Shown here piece by piece: positions 21,196-25,652 of a stretch of 43,935 nt of DNA; the stretch's first letter is position 1, and each line of letters opens with the position of its first letter. The position numbers were made by a program, and so were the translations under genes. Source of the stretch: Rhizobium sp. Q54. GTDB taxonomy: Bacteria > Pseudomonadota > Alphaproteobacteria > ATCC43930 > CGMCC-115725. The notes beneath the pieces are model-generated. The model saw nothing but the letters and a program-made list of their open reading frames with translations. It made no database searches and had not been told where the DNA came from. The stretch lies in the NCBI GenBank assembly GCA_945861155.1, contig CAMATN010000028.1, positions 1 to 43,935 on the forward strand, given 5' to 3'.

Positions 21196-22113
21196 TTGGC
21201 CATCGACTACGAGAAGCGCGACGGCGTCGCCTATATCACGCTGAACAACCCGGCCAAGGCCAACATCTTCGACAAGGAAACCTCGGACGCGATCTCGGAG
21301 GCATGGATCGATCTGTGGGAGGACCGCCAGATCCGCTGCGCGATCGTGACCGGCGCCGGCGACCGGCATTTCTGCGGTGGCCACAATCTGGCGCCGCGCG
21401 AGAACATCACCGCCGAGGAACGCGAATATTTGCGCACCCAGCGCATCTTCTGGCCGCTCGCCGGGACCGTGCACGGGCAAAAGACCGGCGTCGATGGGCG
21501 CATGGGCGACCATTACCCGCGGGTGTGGAAACCGGTCATCGCCGCGGTCAACGGCTGGGCCGCGGGCGCCGGGCTCTACATGCTGCTGTCCTCGACCGAT
21601 ATCCGCATCGCCAGCGCCGAGCACGCGCGGTTCAAGTTCGCCCTGACGACGCAGGGCTGGCTCGGCCACGGGCCGGGCGCCAGCCTGTTGATCAAGCAGC
21701 TGCGCTACATCGACGCGATGAAGATGCTGTTGACCGACGATCCCGTAGATGCCGCGGAGGCGTTGCGCATCGGGCTCGTCAACGAGGTGGTGCCGCACGC
21801 GCAGCTGATGGAGCGGGCCGAAACGATCGCCCGCCACATCGTCACGATGCCGCCGGTGACGCTGCGCATGATGAAGGAGTTCGTGGTCCGCTTTGGCGAT
21901 TTACCGACCGACCAGGCCTGGCACGTGCAGAATCTGATCAACAATCTGCTGATCCAGGTCACGACCGACGGCGAGGAGGGGCGCCAGGCCTTCAACGAAA
22001 AGCGTCCGCCCGATTTCACCGGCGGGCTGCGCCGCCGCGGCGAGGCGTGGGACGAGCTCTCCGAAGAGGATGCCAGGCGCCTCGACGAAGCGTATCGCAG
22101 CGGTGAGTTTTGA
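21196..22113 (+). CDS. Enoyl-CoA hydratase/isomerase family protein
   Basis: 305 residues, starting at a TTG (21196) with GGGGGAGAG 5 nt upstream; no in-frame ATG or GTG fits better. Crotonase fold: YEKRDGVAYITLNNPAKANIFDKET, AIVTGAGDRHFCGGHNL (first oxyanion-hole strand), AVNGWAAGAGLYMLLSSTDIRIAS (second), and ALRIGLVNEVVPHAQL. The hydratase Glu pair is not obvious: the region after the oxyanion hole reads FALTTQGWLGHGPGASLL, so the reaction may differ from simple hydration. It is in a run with a CoA-ester lyase, which fits acyl-CoA catabolism. Confidence 0.92.
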   Translation: MAIDYEKRDGVAYITLNNPAKANIFDKETSDAISEAWIDLWEDRQIRCAIVTGAGDRHFCGGHNLAPRENITAEEREYLRTQRIFWPLAGTVHGQKTGVDGRMGDHYPRVWKPVIAAVNGWAAGAGLYMLLSSTDIRIASAEHARFKFALTTQGWLGHGPGASLLIKQLRYIDAMKMLLTDDPVDAAEALRIGLVNEVVPHAQLMERAETIARHIVTMPPVTLRMMKEFVVRFGDLPTDQAWHVQNLINNLLIQVTTDGEEGRQAFNEKRPPDFTGGLRRRGEAWDELSEEDARRLDEAYRSGEF

Positions 22114-22123
22114 GGCCGATCGC

Positions 22124-23470
22124 GTGTCAGAGACAACAACCGCCACAAACCCGGTTGAGGATCGCCCGGTCGAGGCGTGCCTCGCCGCGCTGCTCGACCG
22201 TCTCGGGATCGCCAGCGCGCATTTTGCCGGACGCGGCTCGGCCGATCTGGCGGGCTTCGCGGCCCGATACCCCGAGCGCATCGCGTCGCTGACCGTGCTG
22301 TGCCCGGCGGTGCTGGACCCGCCGACCCTGGCGCCGCTGGCCGGGCGGGTGCTGGTCGTGACCGGCGACCACGGGGCAGGGCCGCGCCGGGTCCAGGCCG
22401 CGCTGCCCGATCTGCCGCAAGCCACCGCGGTGGTGCTCGCGGATTACGCCGGGTTGACCTGGTCGGATATCGCCCTGGAGCGCGGCGACAGCATCGAAGC
22501 GGCGATGCGGGAGTTCCTCAGGCGTTGCGACGGGTTGCCGGCGACAACCCTGCCCGAGCAGGAAGGCGAGATCGCCGGCATTTCCTACCGCGTGCGCGGC
22601 GCCGGAGCGCCGCTGGTGCTGCTGCCGCTCGACCTGTCGCCGGGGCAATGGGAGCCGCTGATCCCGGCGCTGTCGGCGCGTTATTGCACGATCACGTTGG
22701 GCGGGGCGTTGCTCGGCAGCGTCGCCAGCCTCGAGGAACGCGGGCGCTCGGGCTATATGGGAATCGTGCGCGGGCTGCTCGACGCGCTGGCGATCAGGCC
22801 AGGGGAAAGCGTGCTTGAGGTCGGCTGCGGCTCGGGCGTCATCATGCGCGAGCTGGCGCGCCGCACATCAGGCGCCAACCCTTTGATCGGCCGCGACATG
22901 AGCCCCTATCTGCTGCGCGAGGCGCGGGCATTGGCCCGGCGCGAGGGGCTGATCGACCATGTCGATTTCGGCGAAGGCCGCGCCGAGGCGCTGCCATTGG
23001 CCGATGGCGCGGTCGATGTCGCGCTGTCGTCGACCGTGTTCGAGGAGGGCGACGCCGAGCTGATGCTGTCGGAGATCGTGCGGGTGACGCGGCCCGGCGG
23101 GCGGGTCGGCATCGTCGTGCGCGCGATCGACATGCCGTTCTGGGTCAATCTGCCGCTCGATCCGGCGCTGAAGGCCAAGGTCGACGCCCCCGGCATCATC
23201 GGCGGCGGCGCCGCCCCGAACGGCGTCGCCGATTTGAGCCTCTACCGCCGCCTCGCCGCGCTCGGCCTGACCGGCCTCAAATGCTTCCCACAGTTGGTCT
23301 CGGTCGTCCCCGGCCAGCCGCGCCTCGAACGCTACCAGCAGCAAATCCTCGCCGCTCTGACCCCGGCCGAGACCGAGACGTTTCAGCAGGCTGTCGCCGC
23401 CGCCGAGCGCGACGGCACCTTCTTCATCGCCCAGGCCTACCACTGCGCCGTCGGAGCCAAGCCCGGCTAA
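22124..23470 (+). CDS. Hydrolase-fragment / SAM methyltransferase fusion
   Basis: 448 residues from GTG 22124, which has TGAGG 8 nt upstream; ATG 22070 would overlap the hydratase gene by 44 nt. Residues 15-140 match the second half of an alpha/beta hydrolase (LLDRLGIASAHFAGRGSADL; ARYPERIASLTVLCP; GRVLVVTGDHGAGP; VVLADYAGLTWSDIALERGD), but the elbow reads GRGSA and the usual catalytic His in the GAGH position is absent. Residues 150-205 then look like a hydrolase first half (ISYRVRGAGAPLVLLPLDLSPGQWEPLIPAL). Residues 212-448 form a class I methyltransferase: LEVGCGSG (232-238), GEGRAEALPLADGAVDVALSSTVFE, IVRVTRPGGRVGIVVR. The methyltransferase is probably active and the hydrolase parts non-catalytic. 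Confidence 0.85.
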   Translation: MSETTTATNPVEDRPVEACLAALLDRLGIASAHFAGRGSADLAGFAARYPERIASLTVLCPAVLDPPTLAPLAGRVLVVTGDHGAGPRRVQAALPDLPQATAVVLADYAGLTWSDIALERGDSIEAAMREFLRRCDGLPATTLPEQEGEIAGISYRVRGAGAPLVLLPLDLSPGQWEPLIPALSARYCTITLGGALLGSVASLEERGRSGYMGIVRGLLDALAIRPGESVLEVGCGSGVIMRELARRTSGANPLIGRDMSPYLLREARALARREGLIDHVDFGEGRAEALPLADGAVDVALSSTVFEEGDAELMLSEIVRVTRPGGRVGIVVRAIDMPFWVNLPLDPALKAKVDAPGIIGGGAAPNGVADLSLYRRLAALGLTGLKCFPQLVSVVPGQPRLERYQQQILAALTPAETETFQQAVAAAERDGTFFIAQAYHCAVGAKPG

Positions 23471-25022: not shown

Positions 25023-25652
25023 ATGATCTACGAAGTCCGCACCTATACGCTGCGCCCCGGGACCGTGCCCGAATTCGAGGAGCGCTATGCCGCACGGCTG
25101 CCGCTGCGGCTGAAACACTCAAAGCTCGGGGCCTTCTGGCACACCGAGTTCGGTCCGCTCAACCAGGTCGTCCACGTCTACCCCTACGACGACCTGAACC
25201 AGCGCACATCGGTGCGCGCCGCGCTCGCCGCGGACCCCGTGCGGGCGGCGCAGCCCGGCGGCGGCGATTTTATCGTCGCGCAGGAATCCGAGATCATGAT
25301 CCCGGCGCCGTTCATGCACGCTCTGGGCAGCCGCGATTACGGTTCCGGCAACGTCTATGAGATGCGGACCTACACCTACGCCCCGGGCGACCTGCCGAAG
25401 GTGTTGGAGGCGTGGGCCAAGGCGGTTCCGGCGCGCGAGGAGCTCTCCAAGCTGGCGGCCTGCTGGACCAGCGAACTGGGCGGGCTCAACAAGTTCGTCC
25501 ACATTTGGGTCTACAAGGATCTCGCCGAGCGCGCCCGGGTCCGTGAGGCATCCCGCAAGCCCGGCGGTGCGTGGCCGCCGCAGAGCGGGGTGCGGCCGGT
25601 CCGGCAGGAAAACAAGCTGCTGGTCCCGGCTTCCTTCTCCCCGGTGCGCTAA
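25023..25652 (+). CDS. NIPSNAP family protein (two domains)
   Basis: 209 residues formed by two NIPSNAP-like dimeric alpha/beta barrels: 1-100 (MIYEVRTYTLRPGTVPEFEE...HTEFGPLNQVVHVYPYDDLNQR) and 112-205 (VYEMRTYTYAPGDLPKVLEAW...TSELGGLNKFVHIWVYKDLAER). The repeated start (YEVRTYT/YEMRTYT) and the G-x-L-N-x-x-V-H core confirm an internal duplication. GGAGG lies 8 nt before the ATG. The function is not established; NIPSNAP proteins often accompany monooxygenases, as here with the LLM enzyme across the palindromic repeat. Confidence 0.93.
   Translation: MIYEVRTYTLRPGTVPEFEERYAARLPLRLKHSKLGAFWHTEFGPLNQVVHVYPYDDLNQRTSVRAALAADPVRAAQPGGGDFIVAQESEIMIPAPFMHALGSRDYGSGNVYEMRTYTYAPGDLPKVLEAWAKAVPAREELSKLAACWTSELGGLNKFVHIWVYKDLAERARVREASRKPGGAWPPQSGVRPVRQENKLLVPASFSPVR

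Follow-up and report, generated by a model that had tools for sequence, protein, structure and literature searches.

The window analysed here, a 43,935-nucleotide stretch of the Rhizobium sp. Q54 assembly (GCA_945861155.1, contig CAMATN010000028.1), encodes a 448-residue protein that we read as probably, though with considerable room for doubt, a SAM methyltransferase carrying an N-terminal alpha/beta hydrolase core that is circularly permuted, lidless and non-catalytic, and that would act as a substrate-binding or scaffolding module. This reading is supported at the sequence level by the homology of the individual segments, their permuted order, a core that is complete apart from the lid, loss of the catalytic triad, intact methyltransferase motifs, and the fact that all parts are conserved together.

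The gene lies on the forward strand at 22124..23470, opening with a GTG codon and closing with a stop codon that ends at 23470. Its reading frame is intact and is preceded by GAGG at 22112-22115, eight bases 5' of the start at 22124; an in-frame ATG at 22070 offers an earlier alternative start, but it would fall inside the enoyl-CoA hydratase gene that lies upstream, and the frame does not need it. The local gene order runs HpcH/HpaI aldolase, GNAT acetyltransferase, enoyl-CoA hydratase, fusion gene, luciferase-like monooxygenase, NIPSNAP, with 10 bases separating the fusion gene from the hydratase gene before it and 34 from the monooxygenase gene behind it; a glutathione S-transferase and GNAT acetyltransferases also belong to the same run. 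The placement of the gene within an acyl-CoA/monooxygenase run, proposed in an earlier reading made from the sequence only, holds, with the hydratase upstream and the monooxygenase downstream. Separately, the NIPSNAP protein at 25023-25652 contains two stretches that match the NIPSNAP family and is probably a tandem NIPSNAP domain.

Evidence for a permuted hydrolase core came mainly from profile comparison, in which a family profile of 25 sequences was aligned by hhalign with a 252-column profile built from about 37 standard-order hydrolases of the window's own genome and other loci. Tested separately, the segments fell on distinct parts of the hydrolase profile (all on the forward strand): A1, residues 12-66 (22157..22321), comprising alpha-B, beta5, a degenerate elbow, alpha-C and beta6, matched columns 70-114 (E=3e-10); A2, residues 67-137 (22322..22534), comprising beta7, alpha-E, beta8 and alpha-F with acid and His lost, as judged also from conservation, matched columns 189-252 (E=1.1e-3); and B, residues 148-205 (22565..22738), delimited also by identity and dN/dS and comprising beta1/2, beta3, alpha-A and beta4 before the chain runs into the methyltransferase, matched columns 7-54 when tested as residues 145-205 (E=1.3e-7). 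Alignments place between A2 and B a linker at residues 138-147 (22535..22564), which joins the old C-terminus to the old N-terminus and varies in length across the family. With all 39 sequences included, the E-values were 3.5e-10 for A1, 5.4e-4 for A2 (residues 62-137) and 3e-7 for B; A2 on its own is only weakly recognised (E about 1e-3). The hydrolase columns that were skipped correspond mainly to the lid (about 115-188) and to the beta4/alpha-B loop (about 55-69). The sequence-only reading had assigned residues 15-140 to a C-terminal and residues 150-205 to a N-terminal hydrolase half; both assignments stand with slightly shifted borders, residues of about 12-137 matching alpha-B to alpha-F, lid absent, and about 148-200 matching beta1/2 to beta4. 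The core from beta1/2 to alpha-F is thus recognisable by profile, in an order of elements that differs from the canonical one.

Re-ordering the segments strengthened the match considerably. In natural order, segment A alone aligned with the standard hydrolase profile (score 58.9, E=1.1e-8), whereas swapping the halves back (B+A) gave one diagonal over 173 columns with a score of 94.3 (E=1.7e-14). Against a lidless version of the standard profile, B+A aligned end to end (template 7-182 of 182, E=1.6e-17, compared with 4.4e-12 in natural order), and a circular scan of cut positions reached its top score with the cut around residues 131-151, which is the A/B junction. The score of 94.3 compares with a maximum of 22.1 over 60 trials for fully shuffled columns, a mean of 59.3 and a maximum of 67.2 when shuffled B was placed ahead of intact A, and 11.3 for the reversed profile; the methyltransferase part did not match the hydrolase profile (E>0.1). 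In the segment-by-segment profile search that the earlier reading proposed, A1, A2 and B each fall on their proper hydrolase columns, and the match is beyond the shuffled controls. Searches of the PDB independently gave the same picture: the natural-order profile matched Est1 (6eb3, 8v16) as two crossed stretches (E=6e-6; 132-173 to 6-51 and 10-83 to 77-152), while the re-ordered profile matched the same chains as a single stretch (7-143 to 7-151, E=4.5e-7), and the number of PDB sequences at E<=1 rose from 38 in natural order to 57. AlphaFold2, given two sequences as input (the window protein and its closest relative, L009), returned a mean pLDDT of 35 over the full length and 38 over residues 12-215.

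Single sequences and curated models gave fainter signals from the same region. Pfam Abhydrolase_1 matched below threshold (E=0.14 with the complete protein as query, 0.014 with residues 1-145), pairing residues 11-68 with profile positions 50-107 and thus starting mid-hydrolase; in either order the window protein scored 12.3 to 16 bits, short of the cut-off of 25.8 bits (PF00561), and single sequences in general stayed below it, re-ordered or not. NCBIfam gave similarly weak PcaDC and BphD hints, and a single-sequence search of the PDB matched BphD (3v1k, E=0.001, query 20-73 to chain 94-149). Across Pfam and NCBIfam, zero models were above cut-off in the N-terminal domain, and since standard profiles miss this domain, annotation probably labels proteins of this kind as methyltransferases and nothing more.

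To place the window protein among its relatives, we draw on samples within one class and its phylum. Complete proteins number 39 including the window's own, come from four families of the class, and each give one uninterrupted full-length alignment in which the order is kept (39 of 39). Homologues occurred in 12 of 39 genomes of the window's own genus and family, in 13 of 15 genomes of family f146, in f37 (18 of 76 genomes of its order) and in f172 (one of two genomes of its order). A methyltransferase profile recovered six homologues, the window's own included, from a class sample of 385 genomes, and an even phylum sample of 398 genomes held no further homologue at E<=1e-8; a scan of 84,980 species used one query sequence and detects close relatives only, and the family may be wider. 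The viral collection held no relative, and plasmids yielded matches to the methyltransferase region only, none reaching 80% query coverage. The closest relative, L009, is 82% identical and comes from an Alphaproteobacteria metagenome bin, with the same protein in G005; in the tree it groups with the window protein on a long branch that has full support and lies next to the f146 proteins.

Several features of individual members deserve mention. A few are incomplete (L018, L023, L025, L064), ending at a contig edge or being split by a frameshift. In a low-completeness bin (L025 / L031, G006:C358), the gene lies in two frames and is broken at the A/B linker, for which sequencing error or two separate chains are both possible. 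Two paralogues in G005 (L015 and L030) represent the window branch and the main branch, each about 40% identical over the N-terminal part to the branch of the other. In L009 (889-960), no in-frame ATG, GTG or TTG precedes the middle of the first helix, and an in-frame ATC, preceded by AGGGG, occupies the expected start position, which may be a rare ATC start or an assembly error. One candidate for a second fusion in the same genome as the window, a 440-residue open reading frame (L003), was rejected as an apparent out-of-frame translation ahead of an ordinary methyltransferase.

The sequence-only reading had left open whether the N-terminal segments were remnants of two hydrolases or one non-catalytic hydrolase that is circularly permuted, and the evidence favours the second. 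Permutations are usually explained by a tandem duplication, after which the first N-half and the last C-half are lost. The best surviving alternative, which we nonetheless consider unlikely, is that such a duplication, with losses at both ends, left behind a C-part and an N-part from different hydrolases, with no rebuilt domain. Because the same events also underlie permutation, sequence alone cannot fully separate the two, and the unequal conservation of A and B (dN/dS 0.35 and 0.10, respectively, between the window gene and L009) is in keeping with separate remnants. Against this, the pieces are complementary, without overlap, and between them account for every part of a lidless core if it is opened once, in the loop between beta4 and alpha-B. 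Chance remnants are a less likely source of such a pattern than a single complete core that has been circularly permuted; further, both pieces are retained in all 39 complete proteins. Among 39 genomes of the family, neither a longer remnant nor a core in standard order turned up in any homologue, and the re-ordered profile at E<=1e-9 recovered only permuted proteins, each as crossed pieces, and no standard-order close relative. Several family members, moreover, have an in-frame stop no more than about ten codons ahead of their start, which leaves no room upstream for a hidden N-half in those proteins.

Selection acts on the entire protein. In the comparison with L009, the methyltransferase core and C-terminal part gave dN/dS values of 0.13 and 0.18, which, with those of A and B, indicate purifying selection on every segment and hence a hydrolase-like domain that is not decaying. 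Mean pairwise identity was 52% for A1, 46% for A2, 66% for B, 62% for the methyltransferase core and 54% for the C-terminal part, and pairwise identities over A1+A2 correlated with those over the methyltransferase (0.94), as expected for a single co-inherited unit.

Under the permuted-core reading, A and B would fold together as one hydrolase-like domain within a chain. A domain-swapped dimer, in which B of one chain completes A of another and the hydrolase core becomes a dimerisation module, is expected to leave the same sequence signature, and the short A-B linker (some 10 residues long in the window protein, reaching about 20 elsewhere in the family) is compatible with it; no sequence feature demands such an arrangement, and we hold it to be decidedly improbable.

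Next, we considered whether the permuted core could still be an enzyme. The nucleophile-elbow site (residues 36-40, 22229..22243, forward strand) reads GRGSA in the window protein, and in the family alignment the nucleophile is not conserved: position 38 varies among M, N, I, V, G and F across the 39 sequences, G-x-S-x-G is absent, and the elbow varies as GRGSA, ATQIP, GVQNS and the like, with GRGSA itself restricted to the window protein and L009 and the remaining members carrying M, N, I, V or F in place of its central G. Alignment with the hydrolase profile places a deletion of two residues directly after the elbow and aligns the acid position with Gly84, invariant in all 39 sequences; the catalytic His after beta8 is missing from all 39, which have invariant Trp113 and Asp115 instead. 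The earlier observation that GRGSA replaces G-x-S-x-G and that no catalytic His is present was thus borne out, and the loss of the catalytic residues extends to the family, none of whose 39 members keeps the triad; the alpha/beta hydrolase core looks catalytically dead. Catalysis through other residues, for example Asp41 or Trp113/Asp115, would give the protein two activities, methyltransferase and esterase, as in the BioG-BioC fusion, for which this pairing has been tested by experiment (PMC3494674), and the invariance of Trp113 and Asp115 along with the restriction of position 41 to Asp or Glu (39/39 sequences) fits such a role. Since every member lacks a nucleophile, acid and His at the canonical positions, and given the deletion behind the elbow, we think this very unlikely. 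Finally, a sequencing or assembly artefact or a gene-prediction error, which the 226-contig assembly of the window genome might invite, has a negligible chance of being correct and is refuted by the homologues, since a further 38 complete proteins, drawn from four families of the class, share the order and every segment is under purifying selection. This is a real protein family and not a sequencing accident, given the same arrangement in all 39 complete relatives, and the homologue survey that the earlier reading called for turned up no intact standard-order homologue in the 39 genomes of the family.

The methyltransferase part was strongly recognised. Its class I SAM methyltransferase core (residues 206-345, 22739..23158, forward strand) matched Methyltransf_25 (E=1.9e-18, residues 230-326) and Methyltransf_11 (E=1.1e-17) with 67.4 and 64.8 bits against cut-offs of 27 and 21.2, as well as PDB 5gm1 (E=1.8e-19). 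Both motif I, EVGCGSG (232-238), and the acidic Asp258 after beta2 are conserved in the family. With two Pfam models above cut-off and the SAM motifs intact, the complete class I methyltransferase that had been claimed behind the hydrolase halves is confirmed, and the enzyme is probably active. The C-terminal methyltransferase part (residues 346-448, 23159..23467, forward strand) is family-specific and conserved in the family, its dN/dS of 0.18 referring to residues 346-446. Curated NCBIfam cut-offs were not reached for BioC (44.7 against 342 bits and 37.8 against 184.95 bits) or for ArsM (PRK11873, 64.9 against 263 bits), nor was that of the UbiE family (42.8 against 158 bits). Near the end of the methyltransferase, a His-Cys pair at residues 440-441 of the window protein (23441-23446) is almost invariant in the 39 sequences.

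The position of the cut suggests how the two parts of a permuted-core methyltransferase might work together. In alpha/beta hydrolases, the loop from beta4 to alpha-B is found on that face of the sheet which bears the active site. If cut in this loop, the chain would leave the hydrolase core there and enter the methyltransferase directly, and because the cut is on the catalytic face, the methyltransferase would be placed over the old active site, at the usual position of the lid. Segment B matches the methyltransferase in conservation and is directly continuous with it, and may therefore contact the methyltransferase or its substrate. The old pocket may then cradle or anchor the methyl acceptor, or the carrier of that acceptor, rather than act as an esterase. 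More tentatively, we raise as a possibility with the balance against it that the permutation put the chain exit of this family on the former catalytic face, the methyltransferase replacing the lid and the esterase pocket forming part of the methyltransferase substrate site.

Gene context across the family is metabolic and not constant, with neighbours that differ between branches. In f146, a conserved set comprises a DsbA-like protein, FolD, a VOC-type (glyoxalase-like) gene and the fusion gene (L067:9759-12141, L068:6123-9822, L076:5663-9356, L081:7375-11308); the VOC-like gene and folD closely precede the fusion gene, which in L068 begins 3 bases behind the VOC gene, and a one-carbon link is possible. 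In f1, a CoA-transferase and an MBL-fold lactonase-like gene adjoin (L079), or the monooxygenase does. As the neighbours vary, gene context does not fix the substrate, and these genes allow no more than a guess at hydrophobic metabolites, small acyl compounds among them.

Few enzyme superfamilies are as large as the alpha/beta hydrolases, whose dead members serve as receptors and scaffolds. If our reading is true, an inactive core that is cut near its middle and has been retained ahead of a methyltransferase in four bacterial families would provide a natural test of the fold's tolerance to permutation, and would indicate that permutation can re-site a fusion point towards the old active site.

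Permutations of the fold, dead hydrolase domains on enzymes and hydrolase-methyltransferase fusions are each known separately; we found permutation, hydrolase fold and methyltransferase together neither described in the open-access literature searched nor listed as a curated family. A Penicillium PHB depolymerase has been described as a circularly permuted hydrolase. Compared with the BphD, PcaD and Est1 hydrolases (Abhydrolase_1; PDB 6eb3, 2og1), the window protein is homologous from beta1/2 to beta4 and from alpha-B to alpha-F, but has these parts swapped and lacks the lid and the Ser, acid and His of the triad. With ArsM, UbiE and 5gm1 it has in common the methyltransferase core and SAM motifs, although it scores far below the curated ArsM and UbiE cut-offs and has its own C-terminal part. 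In BioG-BioC of Bacteroides fragilis (PMC3494674), as in BioC/BioH pairs, a hydrolase-type esterase is fused to or works with a methyltransferase of class I; BioG is active as an esterase, and the fusion protein can stand in for both functions, whereas the window hydrolase is permuted and without a triad. The Arb2 domain of histone deacetylases (PMC11878206) is likewise a dead alpha/beta hydrolase domain attached to another enzyme as an accessory module, the role that we propose for the window domain, but follows the deacetylase domain, while the window domain is permuted and precedes the methyltransferase. Lastly, the natural permutations of alpha/beta hydrolases named in PMC11878206, in 3fle and others, involve the outer strands beta1 and beta2, in contrast to the window family, where the cut falls between beta4 and alpha-B.
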